NCBI GenBank assembly: GCA_018399555.1
Contig: JAGYOL010000013.1
Span: 1 to 33,393 of the forward strand
Length of the DNA: 33,393 nucleotides
Direction of reading: 5' to 3'
From: Kiritimatiellia bacterium
Lineage (GTDB): Bacteria > Verrucomicrobiota > Kiritimatiellia > RFP12 > UBA1067
Every line of letters starts with the position of its first letter. Position 1 is the stretch's first letter. The position numbers and the translations under genes were made by a program. Below the pieces are notes generated by a model. That model did no database searches and was not told the DNA's origin. It saw nothing but the letters and a program-made list of their open reading frames with translations. This document shows positions 15,499 to 23,752 of the stretch, piece by piece.

Positions 15499-16413
15499 AT
15501 GAAAAAATTAACATCAATATGTGTGATTGCGGCATGTATCTTCAGTTGCCTCGGTTTGCTCGCTCAGGGGGTTGAGCTCAAACGATCGCAGTGGCTCAAG
15601 AAAATCGGTGAGTCAGTTATGGATGCAAAGGTTCTTAACGACACCTTTGCTCAGATTCCGGATTCCGACAAAGTCGAATTTGTCGAACGCGCCATGAAGG
15701 CGGTTTCGCGGATGCCGGTCGAACCGGAGAAAAAGGCAGCCACCTTTGTAAATGTTGCCGTTGACTGTATTCAGGGTGCCAGAGGAGATATACGCTATGA
15801 TGTAATCGCCGAGGTCTTTGCGACCGTTCCGGTCGTCTTTCTGCCGGTTGTCACCGAGGAACTCTCCAAACGCTTCAATCAGGAGTTCAATAAACTTTCC
15901 GATGAAGACTATGAGAAGATTGCCACATCGGTTATGCGGATCGCTGCCGAGCGCAACACCCGTACCGCCGATCCCGCCGTACGGGATACCTTTGTGGCCC
16001 TTGCCTTTCTGCGCGGCACTGATAATACCAGACTGGAAGCGAAACTGCTGGGACTGATCGGTGATGAGAGAACCGAAAGACTCGTCGCCGGATGGCTGCC
16101 GGCAGCTCTGAACGGCGACTACGCCGCCCTGCTCGCCGCCGCCGATGTCGAACCGCTGAAAATCAATGTCCGGGAGTTTCAACGCCAGACCGGCCACTCC
16201 AATATAGAGGGTCTGGTATCCACCCTCCGTTCCGGCAGTGCCATGGAACAGCTTTTCGTTGACACCTGGGTCACCGATACCACCGGTTTTAACGAGCCGA
16301 CCGATTTCGGTGTCAACCGTACACCGCGGTACTATCCAGTTCCAACAGGTTACCAGAATCAGAAGATTAGTGTCATTAGATGCCCCTGGTGTTCCCCCTG
16401 TAAAATAAAATAA
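15499..16413 (+). CDS. Exported alpha-helical protein of unknown function in the exopolysaccharide locus
   Basis: 304 aa with a clear signal peptide (MKKLTSICVIAACIFSCLGLLA, cleaved near QG). The mature protein is predicted to be mostly helical, with repeated short helices such as EFVERAMKAVSRMP and YEKIATSVMRIAAERN, and has no catalytic motif that I recognise. It ends with CPWCSPCKIK, three cysteines in a CxxCxxC spacing right at the C-terminus, which could bind a metal or form a disulfide. I cannot name the family. AAGGAG lies 7 nt before ATG 15499, and only 24 bases separate it from the OPX gene. It is therefore probably co-transcribed and may be a periplasmic accessory of polysaccharide export. 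Confidence 0.85.
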   Translation: MKKLTSICVIAACIFSCLGLLAQGVELKRSQWLKKIGESVMDAKVLNDTFAQIPDSDKVEFVERAMKAVSRMPVEPEKKAATFVNVAVDCIQGARGDIRYDVIAEVFATVPVVFLPVVTEELSKRFNQEFNKLSDEDYEKIATSVMRIAAERNTRTADPAVRDTFVALAFLRGTDNTRLEAKLLGLIGDERTERLVAGWLPAALNGDYAALLAAADVEPLKINVREFQRQTGHSNIEGLVSTLRSGSAMEQLFVDTWVTDTTGFNEPTDFGVNRTPRYYPVPTGYQNQKISVIRCPWCSPCKIK

Positions 16414-19275: not shown

Positions 19276-21798
19276 ATGAGTGATGACCACAATTCCGGCA
19301 CTGAGTCAAGAGCCAGTCGCCCGATCTACTACGGTGGACAGACCCCGGCGGCTGAGGCCGCTTCTTCACCACATTCTTCGGCTCTCTACTACGGCGGCAG
19401 AAGCCCGGCTGCTTACGCCACCACAGCCAGATCACCGGCACTATATTACGGCGGTGCTGCGCCGGCGGCGGGATACCCTGGCTATGGCTATGGTGCTGGC
19501 GGCTACTACTACGGCGGTGCCGGCAGCGGTATCAGCGATGATGATGATTCACTGACCGGCGCAATTACCATCGGACGTATGATCCGTGTCTGCTCACAAC
19601 GCTGGATAACGATTTTTGTCTTCGTGATAATAGGGCTGGTTGCATCGTTCGCTGTCTTTAAAATTTCCCCGGTTGTGTATGAAGCACGCGCCGTCTTTGA
19701 AATGAGCTTGCGTCGTCCCTCGGTGCTTGGTCTGCGTGAGGCGGTAATCGACACCTCCCAGGGAACAATGAGTGAAGTTTTCAATACGCGTCTGGCCCGT
19801 CTGCGATCACGCGCCGTGATCGACCAGATTGTGACCCAGTACCGTAGCGATTACCCCAGTTCAACAGTCTCCGACGAGGAGCTGATCAGTACGCTGGTCA
19901 ACTCAAAAATGGAGTTGCAGCGCCGCTCGATGTTGATCACCATCACTGTGCAGTCCACCGATAAAAAACTGGCGGCCGATCTCGCCAATGCCTACGCCAA
20001 GGCCGCTGAAACCTTCACCGCCGAACAGAACCGCAATCAGTCTGAAATGGCCGTCGCCTGGCTGCACACAACCACCGAGCAGCAGAAACGTGCACTTGAA
20101 CGCGCCGATAAGGAGATGCTGGAGTACCGCGTCGCCCACCAGCTCGATACAATGGAGAATGAAAGCGAAATCGCCAAACAGTCGCTTGCAACCATCAATA
20201 CCGAAATAATGTCACTGGAAAGTGAGCTCACCAAAGCCCGCGAACTGCAGAAAACTCTGGAGGCAATCCAGAATGAGCCTGAAAAATTCGGCAGCCTGCC
20301 TGAGTCTATCCCGCGGACAGCCGAAATCGGAACAGCGTATGCCAAGCTGCTGAGTGCCCTGGCTGAAAAAAACTCTATGATGGCCCGCTATACCGCCAAC
20401 CACCCCGAAGTGAAGGTTAAAGAGAAAGAGGTTGAAATATTCCGCCAGCAGTTTGCCGATGTCGTCTATCGTGCCCTTGAAACCTGTAAGGCCAATGTCG
20501 ATCTGCTGCAGCGCCAGTTGGGCCAGTTGACCCCTGAACAGGAACGACTGATGAAGAAGATTTCAGAGCTTGAACTTAAAACCGTAACAGCACAGATGAA
20601 ACTTGATCAGTTGGCACGAGAACGCGAGGTCGCCGATATTAACTATAAAGCATTGCTGCAGCGTACCAATGAAGCCCAGCTCGATGCCGATCAGAACACC
20701 GCCCTGATTAAACAGGTGGAACAGGCCTTTGAACCAAACCGGCCGGTCAAACCCAATCCGATGATTATCTTTCCCGCCGGACCAGTGCTCGGCTTGATTT
20801 TCGGGGTCCTCTTTGTTCTGGTACTTGACCATCTGGAAGACAAAATCGTAGGGGTCTCCGATATCGAACAGCGCCTGCGTCTCAAAACACTGGCCGTTAT
20901 TCCGCATGTGCGCCGAAAGAAAAGAGAGCAGCTCGCGCTTGCAGTCAAAAACGAAAAATTCTCACAGTTTGCCGAGGCCATCGCCGGCTTGCGTAATCTG
21001 CTGGATTCACCCCGCTACGCTGAAATCAGCAAGGTCTGCCTGTGTATGAGCACCCAGCCAGGCGAGGGTAAAACCATCACCTCCTGCTCACTGGCAATAT
21101 CCTGCGCCCAGAGCGGACAGAAAACACTGCTGGTGGACTGCGATATGCGTCGGCCGCGTCTGGCCCGTATCTTCGAGAAAAAATCAGCGGAGTATAAAAG
21201 CCTGCCCCACCGCATACGCGAAGGAGGCGTCAGCAGCTTCGCCGATCTGTCGGTTGCCTCCGGCATCGAGAATCTGGATCTGGTGCTCTCAAAAGCCTCA
21301 TCGGAGATCAATCCCGCCAACCTGATGGGTAGCGGCTCCATCAACGAGTTCTTCGCCTGGGCGCGACAGAATTATGATCGCGTCTTTATCGACTCGCCGC
21401 CGTACGGTATCGTCGGCGATGTTATGGTGCTGGCCTCTCTCTCCGATGCGGTCATGATACTGTGCTGCCCGGACCGCACCCGCTTCCGCCCGATTAAACA
21501 TGCCGCCAGAACCCTGACCGAATCCGGCGCCCGCGTGATCGGTGTCATCGTCAACGATGTCGATTTCGGACGACGTAACCAGTTCAGCCAGTACGACTAT
21601 CACTACCGCTATGCCTACCGCTATACCTCCCGCTACGGCGCATACGGGCAGGGAAAAAAATTAAACATCGACGGAGTCGGCAAGAATAAAAAACAATCAC
21701 CCGAAACTGCTATGCTGGATGACGATGATCTCACCCCGTCGGCTGCGACTATGCCAAGGGATGTCGTTGACCATTCGATGATGGATGACGACGATTGA
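19276..21798 (+). CDS. Wzc-like polysaccharide co-polymerase and tyrosine autokinase
   Basis: 840 aa. The N-terminus (residues 18-81) carries four YYGG motifs about 20 residues apart in a Pro/Ala/Ser/Gly-rich stretch, placed before the first membrane helix (110-128) and so in the cytoplasm. A Wzz-type periplasmic domain follows, with a long coiled-coil region, roughly 225-460. A second membrane helix at about 496-518 follows the PNPM segment usual before it. The BY-kinase domain has Walker A QPGEGKT at 594-600, Walker A' LLVDCDMRRPRL and Walker B VFIDSPP. A tyrosine-rich cluster at about 773-793 (YDYHYRYAYRYTSRYGAY) is the usual autophosphorylation tail, followed by an acidic C-terminus. GAGGAG lies 7 nt before ATG 19276. 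It controls polymer length and export with the OPX protein; the N-terminal YYGG extension is unusual. Confidence 0.93.
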   Translation: MSDDHNSGTESRASRPIYYGGQTPAAEAASSPHSSALYYGGRSPAAYATTARSPALYYGGAAPAAGYPGYGYGAGGYYYGGAGSGISDDDDSLTGAITIGRMIRVCSQRWITIFVFVIIGLVASFAVFKISPVVYEARAVFEMSLRRPSVLGLREAVIDTSQGTMSEVFNTRLARLRSRAVIDQIVTQYRSDYPSSTVSDEELISTLVNSKMELQRRSMLITITVQSTDKKLAADLANAYAKAAETFTAEQNRNQSEMAVAWLHTTTEQQKRALERADKEMLEYRVAHQLDTMENESEIAKQSLATINTEIMSLESELTKARELQKTLEAIQNEPEKFGSLPESIPRTAEIGTAYAKLLSALAEKNSMMARYTANHPEVKVKEKEVEIFRQQFADVVYRALETCKANVDLLQRQLGQLTPEQERLMKKISELELKTVTAQMKLDQLAREREVADINYKALLQRTNEAQLDADQNTALIKQVEQAFEPNRPVKPNPMIIFPAGPVLGLIFGVLFVLVLDHLEDKIVGVSDIEQRLRLKTLAVIPHVRRKKREQLALAVKNEKFSQFAEAIAGLRNLLDSPRYAEISKVCLCMSTQPGEGKTITSCSLAISCAQSGQKTLLVDCDMRRPRLARIFEKKSAEYKSLPHRIREGGVSSFADLSVASGIENLDLVLSKASSEINPANLMGSGSINEFFAWARQNYDRVFIDSPPYGIVGDVMVLASLSDAVMILCCPDRTRFRPIKHAARTLTESGARVIGVIVNDVDFGRRNQFSQYDYHYRYAYRYTSRYGAYGQGKKLNIDGVGKNKKQSPETAMLDDDDLTPSAATMPRDVVDHSMMDDDD
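19327..19518 (+). repeat. YYGG-encoding repeats in the Wzc-like kinase
   Basis: Four YYGG motifs at residues 18-21, 38-41, 57-60 and 78-81 have spacings of 20, 19 and 21 residues. Three are followed by (x)xPAA and two are preceded by SSAL or SPAL. The codons tactacggyggy recur, so this is a low-complexity repeat that could expand or contract. It lies in the cytoplasmic N-terminus, where the tyrosines could be kinase substrates. Confidence 0.8.
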
Positions 21799-21817: not shown

Positions 21818-21933
21818 ACGCCTGCGTCATATGTGTATCACGGTGTGACATTGTGTCTGCCGCGATCAAGTGTTTATCGCTCAAAGTGGCCATTGTGGCA
21901 CTTGTTCTGTCAGATTATTCTGTTTTTCAGGGA

Positions 21934-21949
21934 TGGCACGCCTTTTGCT
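21934..21949 (+). promoter_or_regulatory. Sigma-54 promoter of the Cys-rich peptide gene
   Basis: TGGCACG, four bases, then TTGCT matches the -24/-12 consensus (TGGCAC-N5-TTGCW) at every defined position with correct spacing. Transcription should start near 21960, giving a leader of about 34 nt before the ATG at 21994. A TATATTAT stretch just downstream could be read as a sigma-70 -10 box, but no -35 box sits at the right distance. Sigma-54 promoters need an AAA+ activator; none is encoded in this window. Confidence 0.75.
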
Positions 21950-21993
21950 GAATATATTATACAAAGTTAACGTATTACAAAAGGAGATTGAAA

Positions 21994-22221
21994 ATGAAAA
22001 ACTTGATGATGTATATGGCGGTTGTTGCAGCAATGTTCATGGCACCTGCGGCGGTTGAAGCCCAGCAGTGCGGAGCACCTTGTAAGAAGGCTGCCAAAGA
22101 GAGTTGTACTGTACGTAAGAACTGTCCGGAAAGGGATAGCTGCAAAAAAGAGTGCAAAACTGAGTGTAATCAGAAAAAAGCGGCTGAGCGGAAAGCATGC
22201 TGCCCTAAAAACAAGGCTTAA
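21994..22221 (+). CDS. Secreted Lys/Cys-rich peptide, 75 aa
   Basis: The ORF track starts at TTG 21988, but ATG 21994 follows AAGGAGA with 6 nt spacing and opens a standard signal peptide (MKNLMMYMAVVAAMFMAPAAVEA, cleaved before QQC). The mature part is about 52 residues with nine cysteines and some fifteen lysines. Cysteines lie in short spacings (CGAPC, CKKECKTEC, and a final CC), and hydrophobic residues are almost absent, so there is no classical folded core. Such a composition could suit metal binding, a disulfide-knotted peptide, or electrostatic binding to anionic polysaccharide. I do not recognise a named family. The gene is a closed unit with its own sigma-54 promoter and strong terminator, directly downstream of the Wzc-like gene. 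The odd cysteine count allows an intermolecular disulfide. Confidence 0.85.
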   Translation: MKNLMMYMAVVAAMFMAPAAVEAQQCGAPCKKAAKESCTVRKNCPERDSCKKECKTECNQKKAAERKACCPKNKA

Positions 22222-22244
22222 AAACAACTGTTGAATAAAGTCAG

Positions 22245-22282
22245 AAAAGCCGGTCCCCGATGTGGCCGGTTTTTTTGTTTTT
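22245..22282. terminator. Intrinsic terminator after the Cys-rich peptide gene, probably bidirectional
   Basis: CCGG-T-CC pairs with GGCCGG across a 7-nt loop with one bulged T, and A-rich and T-rich flanks extend the stem. On + it is followed by TTTTTTT-G-TTTTT. On - it is followed by CTTTTCTGACTTT, so it may also end transcripts from the convergent M20 dipeptidase gene. Confidence 0.85.
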
Positions 22283-22321
22283 AGCCCTGAAAACTGCAGT
22301 TGCCATTTTGCCGTTAACAGG

Positions 22322-23689
22322 TTAAAACGCCAGTGCGCTCAGAATGGAGTATGACCACTGCATGACCTGCTTGAATTGATCAATCCCAAAAGATTCGTTC
22401 GGGCAGTGAATGCGATCTTCTTCGCGACCAAATCCCACTAGCAGCGGTGCCGCGCCGGAGTATTGCCGCAGGGTAGCGATAATGGGTATGGATGCGCCTT
22501 CCCACCTGAAAACCGCCCCACGGCTGTCCATGTCGCGCAAAACCCTCTCGGCAATCTGAAATATCGGCGTGTTCACAGCCAGTCGGAAACCGGGTGCTCC
22601 CTTCACAATTTCGGAAAATGAAATTTCAAGCCCGGGCGGACAGTTGCTTACAAGATGTTTCTTCAGCGCGGTCAGCGTCCGCTCAATCTGCTGACCAGGT
22701 ACCAGCCGCATACTCAGCTTGGCTGTGGCTTCGCTGGGAATAATGGTTTTAGGTCCCGTTCCCGTGTGCCCTGAAAAAATTCCGTTCACCTCGATCGTCG
22801 GATAAAAGCCAGCCCGCTCCACAGGCGGCAGAGCACGTTCACCCCCCAGCGGCGGACAGCCGGTCTCAGCTTGATAAGCATCCGCACTAAGCTGATCACG
22901 GTTGGCCAGAGAGCGCTCTTCTTCCGTCGGCTCTATCATGCCGTCACAGAACTCAGCTACGGCAATAGAACCGTCTTGATTGTGCAGCGTCGCCAGTAAT
23001 CGCGCCAGCCCCTGTGCAGGATTCGGTGCCACGCCGCCATGAACACCGGAGTGCAGATCATAGTCAGGACCCTTCAATGTTACGGTCATATTCTGTATGC
23101 CGCGCAGCGCGGCTATGATGGCGGGTTGCCCGTTGCCGGCACAGCAGGTGTCACTTACCAGCAGAACATCGGATCTGATCTGATCGCCCAGATGCGGAAC
23201 CATCTCAAGGAGTCCGGCGCTGCCGGACTCCTCCTGCCCTTCAATGATAAGTCTGATCGTAGGGATGCTTTCACCCTCTTCAATCAAAGCCCGAAGACCC
23301 TGAATAAACGCGAAGCTCTGCCCTTTGTTGTCCTGCGCACCCCTGGCGTAAACTCTGCCGTCACGCAGACAAGGTTCAAACGGGGGACTCTCCCATTTTT
23401 CCGCCGGATCAGCAGGCTGCACATCGTAGTGACCGTAAAACAATACGGTGGTGTCGCATTCGGATGAGACGCGTTCCGCAAAAAGTACCGGCACCGGCAG
23501 ACCCTGATGCGGTATCCGGATTTCAACCTCAAACCCCATGGCTTTGAGATACTTTTTAAGCCAGGCTGCCGTGCGGGCACAATCACTCAGACGCAGAGGA
23601 TCGGCACCAAGTGATGGCAGCTTGAGCAGTTTGAACCATTCAGATAAGATGTGTTCACGGTTCTTTTCAAAATAGTTGTCGATATCCAT
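22322..23689 (-). CDS. M20-family metallopeptidase (dipeptidase)
   Basis: 455 aa. It is a zinc-dependent exopeptidase of the M20 dipeptidase group, probably cytoplasmic as no signal peptide is seen. Metal and catalytic residues are in place: GHYDVQ with His87 and Asp89, Asp120 in ARGAQDNKG, the general base and ligand pair in EGQEESGS (Glu153/154), a later Asp in LLVSDT, and the conserved His in the HCPNE segment near the C-terminus. The dimerisation or lid domain shows DLHSGVHGGVAPNP. I chose ATG 23689 over the track's TTG 23710 because AGGAG lies 8 nt upstream and the family begins at about MDIDNYF. It is convergent with the Cys-rich peptide gene and lies downstream of the tRNA-Cys unit on the same strand. 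The exact substrate is not evident. Confidence 0.92.
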   Translation of the reverse strand: MDIDNYFEKNREHILSEWFKLLKLPSLGADPLRLSDCARTAAWLKKYLKAMGFEVEIRIPHQGLPVPVLFAERVSSECDTTVLFYGHYDVQPADPAEKWESPPFEPCLRDGRVYARGAQDNKGQSFAFIQGLRALIEEGESIPTIRLIIEGQEESGSAGLLEMVPHLGDQIRSDVLLVSDTCCAGNGQPAIIAALRGIQNMTVTLKGPDYDLHSGVHGGVAPNPAQGLARLLATLHNQDGSIAVAEFCDGMIEPTEEERSLANRDQLSADAYQAETGCPPLGGERALPPVERAGFYPTIEVNGIFSGHTGTGPKTIIPSEATAKLSMRLVPGQQIERTLTALKKHLVSNCPPGLEISFSEIVKGAPGFRLAVNTPIFQIAERVLRDMDSRGAVFRWEGASIPIIATLRQYSGAAPLLVGFGREEDRIHCPNESFGIDQFKQVMQWSYSILSALAF

Positions 23690-23752
23690 CACGCTCTCTC
23701 CTGAAATCAAAAATCCCGCTTGAAAATTACAGAGATTGAATTAGCCGCACAG

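Follow-up and report, generated by a model that had tools for sequence, protein, structure and literature searches.

A predicted sigma-54-transcribed gene for an exported cysteine- and lysine-rich peptide in a Kiritimatiellia genus, and its possible tie to cysteine supply

A short gene in the genome of a Kiritimatiellia bacterium encodes a peptide rich in lysine and cysteine that is predicted to be exported, and the gene appears to be transcribed from a sigma-54 promoter that is also found before its orthologues. The gene, the orthologues, the promoter footprint and an operator-like motif with a genus-specific distribution are all read from the genomes. Under the explanation that fits best, RpoN (sigma-54) would drive a single-gene transcription unit conserved in the genus. 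The product would leave via Sec and be cut after AxA to give a strongly basic peptide of 52-71 residues with 8-15 Cys and no His, which would buffer thiols or metals in the cell envelope in the manner of a metallothionein. A TATCAC-N3-GTGAYA site upstream would probably be bound by an XRE-family protein whose two-CW tail is rich in Cys. Since the promoters of sulfate-assimilation genes, cysK and a sulfatase carry this site as well, production of the peptide would keep pace with the cysteine supply pathway. This whole reading, of a sigma-54-transcribed, exported, thiol/metal-buffering peptide coupled to cysteine supply, is tentative and stands somewhat below an even chance.

The window, that is the whole 33,393-nt stretch of DNA that was analysed, comes from an incomplete 2.86-Mb assembly (82% complete; G000), and the genus sample consists of this genome and two others (G017 and G018). 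The gene content around the unit fits a PVC affiliation. An earlier note on this DNA had described a closed unit of promoter box, ribosome-binding site, signal peptide, mature part with nine Cys, and terminator, and all of these parts are present in the sequence. With their surroundings they are:

19276..21798, + strand: Wzc-like gene, a neighbour outside the unit (Pfam GNVR, AAA_31 and Wzz; orthologues in G017 and G018)
21836..21850, no strand assigned: candidate regulator site TATCACGGTGTGACA, one mismatch to TATCAC-N3-GTGATA
21934..21949, + strand: predicted sigma-54 -24/-12 promoter TGGCACGCCTTTTGCT, that is TGGCACG-CCTT-TTGCT, with GG-N10-GC spacing and in register with the boxes of G018 and G017
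21980..21987, + strand: ribosome-binding site AAAGGAGA, read in the sequence
21994..22221, + strand: 75-aa ORF for the exported Lys/Cys-rich peptide (ATG at 21994, stop at 22219-22221)
22242..22285, + strand: Rho-independent terminator-like hairpin (22242-22277) with a T run
22322..23710, - strand: M20 peptidase gene, a convergent neighbour (Pfam Peptidase_M20; TTG start called; syntenic in G017)

The precursor has a signal peptide at residues 1-23, likely cut after VEA (VEA↓Q), and the mature part (residues 24-75, beginning QQCGAPC) is 52 aa long with nine Cys, 15 Lys/Arg and 6 Asp/Glu, which gives a net charge of +9. It contains no His, no aromatic residues and almost no hydrophobic ones. 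Diverged orthologues of the gene bring its occurrence to three of the three genus genomes. That of G017 (94 aa, 49% identity) is syntenic and lies beside the same convergent M20 peptidase gene, and that of G018 (87 aa) was matched by a two-sequence profile with an E value of 4.9e-13. Compared with shuffled sequences, the mature parts are similar at z scores of 4.2 (G000-G017), 5.9 (G017-G018) and 2.8 (G000-G018). Both orthologues share the ribosome-binding site AAAGGAGA. A lenient scan for terminator hairpins on its own gives a chance-level count (1 found versus 0.9 expected); a hairpin with a T run can also be seen in the sequence at the end of both orthologous units. The ORF goes beyond chance because it is kept in both sister genomes, with the box in register within divergent upstream DNA, and it is practically certain to be a real gene. 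A mobile-element or viral origin of the unit was rejected, with no plasmid matches and no viral relatives, and an Rfam scan found nothing on the unit itself.

The predicted box reaches the maximum of the weight matrix used here (18.2 of 18.2; 0/1000 shuffles of the 250-bp upstream region), a matrix made by hand from the published consensus. An exact TGGCAC-N5-TTGCW occurs only once in the 33-kb window and three times in the whole assembly; if up to one mismatch is allowed, 1.48 matches are expected in the window. As a genome-wide regulon finder in G000 the exact box was discarded as weak (3 matches versus 2 for the control, one intragenic). The distance from a TGG-N10-GC box to the ATG is 45 nt in G000, 49 nt in G018 and 51 nt in G017, and a three-way alignment of the upstream regions places these boxes in register, with TGG and TGCT kept and the flanks diverged. 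The in-register boxes score 18.2 in G000, 14.8 in G018 and 8.4 in G017, with shuffle frequencies of 0, 0.004 and 0.03. Each of the three genomes has a gene for RpoN (PF04552), and G000 has seven strong matches to the sigma-54 activator domain (PF00158). The orthologous boxes 45-51 nt before the ATG, together with RpoN in the three genomes, make the box very probably real, and it is in all likelihood the sigma-54 promoter of the peptide gene. The sigma-54 control proposed in the earlier note is in this respect well supported by footprinting and by the RpoN genes, and transcription by RpoN from this box would be expected to start near 21960.

An ordinary sigma-70 promoter with a coincidental -24/-12 match would have (A/T)TGGCA as its -35, a spacing of 16 nt and TATTAT/TAAATT as its -10. 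These 9-of-12 matches overlap the box and are placed alike relative to it in G000 and G018, but sigma-70 matches of such quality arise by chance in these stretches. The sigma-70 reading also leaves the GC at -12, the exact GG-N10-GC spacing in three genomes and the perfect -24/-12 score unexplained, which makes it quite improbable.

The weak in-register box of G017 is accompanied by a strong one (16.1) 206 nt before the ATG, with a terminator-like hairpin between that box and the gene. It is possible that this upstream box drives a short sigma-54-dependent RNA, or that it is a remnant. In this stretch (L002:1934-1800, minus strand) the hairpin lies about 110 nt after the strong box. A relaxed box pattern matches 8, 12 and 23 times in the three genomes, versus 4, 5 and 0 times for reversed-pattern controls. 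A second target conserved in all three (L033, L098, L122; G000:C271, G017:C47, G018:C173) has its box 12 nt before a gene for a DUF5060-like secreted protein, which is divergent, at 23-26 nt, from a sugar-transferase-like gene; the DUF5060 assignment comes from a test of the G000 protein, which those of G017 and G018 resemble by eye.

The second upstream element was first noticed by eye when upstream regions were compared, and was then tested. In G000 TATCACGGTGTGACA (TATCAC-N3-GTGACA) lies 98 bp upstream of the box and 158 bp before the ATG. In G018 TATCACACAGTGACA, also with one mismatch, lies 139 bp upstream of the box and 203 bp before the ATG. The site at 21836-21850 is the sole match to TATCAC-N3-GTGATA with up to one mismatch in the window. 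Genome-wide, the three members of the genus have 3, 3 and 8 occurrences of TATCAC-N3-GTGAYA, and the 109 other genomes of the family that were scanned have about 13 between them, most of these within long ORFs. TATCAC-N3-GTGATA is highly likely to be a genus-specific operator. That it controls the peptide gene, which has a candidate site in two of the three genomes, is reasonably likely; this link is drawn from two genomes because the best copy at the G017 gene has three mismatches, which is the level of chance. The earlier note was partly right in its reading of the region, and missed this palindrome with its tie to genes for cysteine synthesis and sulfate assimilation.

The operator also stands at the start of an XRE-family gene, exact in G000 and G017 and with one mismatch in G018. 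The genes for these XRE/two-CW regulators are:

G000:C126:148-573 (L140)
G017:C99:568-978 (L143)
G018:C63 (L144:5295-5702)

Their products are 135-141 aa long and have an MqsA-like HTH and a two-CW-like tail with 8 Cys, both of which are matches that fall short of curated cut-offs. In G018 another operator stands at the start of a DUF2061 gene that is followed by cysH, cysD, cysNC and sulfite reductase, and in G017 one is read in the sequence at the start of a DUF2061 gene. The operator of cysK in G017, TATCACCACGTGTTA, was caught by a looser pattern, and in G000 an operator is found at the start of a sulfatase gene. An apparent sigma-54 box behind this last operator was discarded, since it falls inside the sulfatase ORF. 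The position of the site within the -35/-10 spacer of the regulator and DUF2061/cys promoters suggests repression; cysK and the sulfatase gene have promoters that match sigma-70 less well. The copies at the peptide gene, unlike those at the regulator and cys promoters, lie outside a sigma-70 -35/-10 spacer. From this arrangement the XRE/two-CW protein is a candidate repressor of sulfate assimilation, and it may bind the site at the peptide gene as well, with a direction of action that could differ there. In CymR/CysB-type control, one regulator governs sulfate assimilation and cysK. The likeness here is a single regulator over the same two functions; the difference is that the candidate is an XRE protein with an MqsA-like HTH, a two-CW Cys-rich tail and TATCAC-N3-GTGATA as its operator. 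A narrow literature search found no description of an XRE/two-CW regulator. In G018 operator copies also precede large secreted proteins (L147, L162, L163, L145; one of them RHS/DUF6531-like) with no evident link to sulfur. Upstream of the G018 peptide gene, L038:299-353 (+ strand) is a sub-threshold match to the Acido-Lenti-1 RNA, at 26.5 bits where the gathering threshold is 37.

The export that the earlier note had claimed is supported at the sequence level by signal peptides in all three genomes that end in AxA↓Q or NA↓Q, with cleavage contexts (VEA↓QQC, VSA↓QCC, VNA↓QSGSC) of the SPase I type; the envelope would then be a plausible final location. Across the three peptides the mature part ranges from 52 to 71 residues, with 12-21% Cys, a net charge of +7 to +14, no His and 0-1 aromatic residues. 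The number of Cys is 9 in G000, 15 in G017 and 8 in G018, their spacing differs, few Cys columns are invariant, and CxC motifs occur in the G017 peptide only. A fixed Cys framework was therefore rejected. The earlier note had tied its proposal to a Cys pattern conserved in relatives together with an upstream box: the box is kept in all three genomes, and the pattern has largely been lost in both count and spacing. Such variability counts against a defence peptide held in a fixed disulfide knot and favours a metal/thiol or loosely cross-linked peptide.

Buffering of thiols or metals fits best because of the composition and the cysteine link, with a cross-linked envelope peptide next, and as the function of the peptide it falls a little short of an even call. 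Metallothioneins such as SmtA and MymT are short, rich in Cys and Lys and poor in aromatic residues, no fold is expected of them without a ligand, and CxC motifs are typical of them. The window peptide resembles them in being short, Cys/Lys-rich and aromatic-poor, and differs in that it is predicted to be exported rather than cytoplasmic, has no His and, within the genus, few CxC; Pfam, NCBIfam and PDB sequences gave no metallothionein match. Bufferins (BufA, DUF2282), another group of small exported peptides with Cys, have been proposed to handle copper. The window peptide is likewise small, Cys-containing and predicted to be exported, but it does not match DUF2282, and a Pfam search of neighbouring proteins revealed no DUF692-type maturation gene. 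No metal-resistance gene was found beside the peptide gene. More tentative still than the buffering function is the suggestion of an undescribed exported Cys/Lys-rich family under sigma-54 and XRE/two-CW thiol/metal sensing, in which buffer and cysteine synthesis are co-induced. If the buffering reading is true, an orphan peptide acquires a hypothesis of thiol/metal handling in which promoter, regulator and jointly controlled pathway are all named, and Chlamydia is joined by another lineage where sigma-54 drives a Cys-rich envelope peptide. A regulator and operator of cysteine synthesis would also be proposed for an uncultured group in which no description of either was found.

A disulfide-linked peptide of the envelope or matrix, a kind of small OmcA that is cross-linked by oxidation and adheres to anionic material of the envelope or to exopolysaccharide, is rather unlikely, although it has a precedent within the PVC bacteria. 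In Chlamydia trachomatis sigma-54 directly controls omcA and omcB, which encode Cys-rich, cross-linked envelope proteins (PMC7482065), and sigma-54 has a general association with the bacterial exterior (PMC3162934). In each of the three genomes the box before the gene for the DUF5060-like secreted protein, with its divergent sugar-transferase-like neighbour, points the same way. An odd Cys number, or one that varies, is also no obstacle to polymeric cross-linking. The window peptide shares with OmcA and OmcB a Cys-rich product and a sigma-54 box, and is unlike them in having no Pfam relation that was found, far more Lys, a variable Cys count and no adjoining OmcB-like partner gene. A lipobox with Cys at +1, as in OmcA, is absent from the three peptides, which have SPase I-type sites instead. 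The linkage to exopolysaccharide is lost in G018, and co-regulation with the cysteine pathway is compatible with a cross-linked envelope peptide but not needed by it.

A sink for cysteine or sulfur is improbable. Here the regulator would, on cysteine excess, repress the synthesis genes and activate the peptide gene, with the surplus exported or stored. The site in the -35/-10 spacer of the regulator and cys promoters is what repression predicts, and the peptide gene's site, some 100-140 bp ahead of the sigma-54 box, has an activator-like position; yet a Lys-rich peptide is a costly way to export cysteine, other controls on biosynthesis are usually enough, and the G017 gene has no site. An antimicrobial or defence peptide, as small, secreted, cationic and Cys-rich features might suggest, is very improbable, as no immunity, transporter or maturation genes were recognised beside the gene in the loci read, there are no PADLOC or viral relatives, the three peptides lack the even, conserved Cys number and spacing of defensins, and the mature part is almost without hydrophobic residues.

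Searches of Pfam, NCBIfam, PDB sequences and PADLOC gave no family match to the window peptide. AlphaFold, run from the three sequences, returned a helical model of medium confidence (mean pLDDT 66.7), which had no match in a PDB fold search. Other genera of the family had no convincing members, and a search of 346 genomes of the class added weak matches only. A separate match in the contig search, L021, covers the signal peptide only. Weak look-alikes that are short, exported and Lys/Cys-rich occur in other families of the phylum (G198, G207, G208, G164, G597). The G198 similarity to the genus peptides is slightly above shuffles, and against G017 the mature parts of G207 and G597 score no higher than shuffled sequences. 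A common operator or box was sought in the five and not found, save for a weak box in G198. Asr, the acid-shock protein, is repetitive, basic and without cysteines. The likeness to Asr lies in an exported, short, repetitive and basic peptide, and G198 is a weak sub-threshold match to it (E 0.007), whereas the window peptide is Cys-rich and has no match to Asr. In G164, L047:1501-1827 encodes an exported protein, rich in Cys, in which one stretch (LSDEQKEKI) resembles CpxP/Spy by eye.

The exopolysaccharide link of the earlier note is weakened to a positional one. Two sugar-nucleotide genes separate the Wzc gene from the peptide gene in G017, and in G018 the peptide gene is on another contig, where it adjoins a TonB-dependent receptor; a strict tie to the exopolysaccharide locus was rejected on account of this moved copy. 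Within that locus, positions 15499-16413 of the window hold a 304-aa ORF with no Pfam matches, and a similar exported ORF is found at the equivalent place in both G017 and G018.
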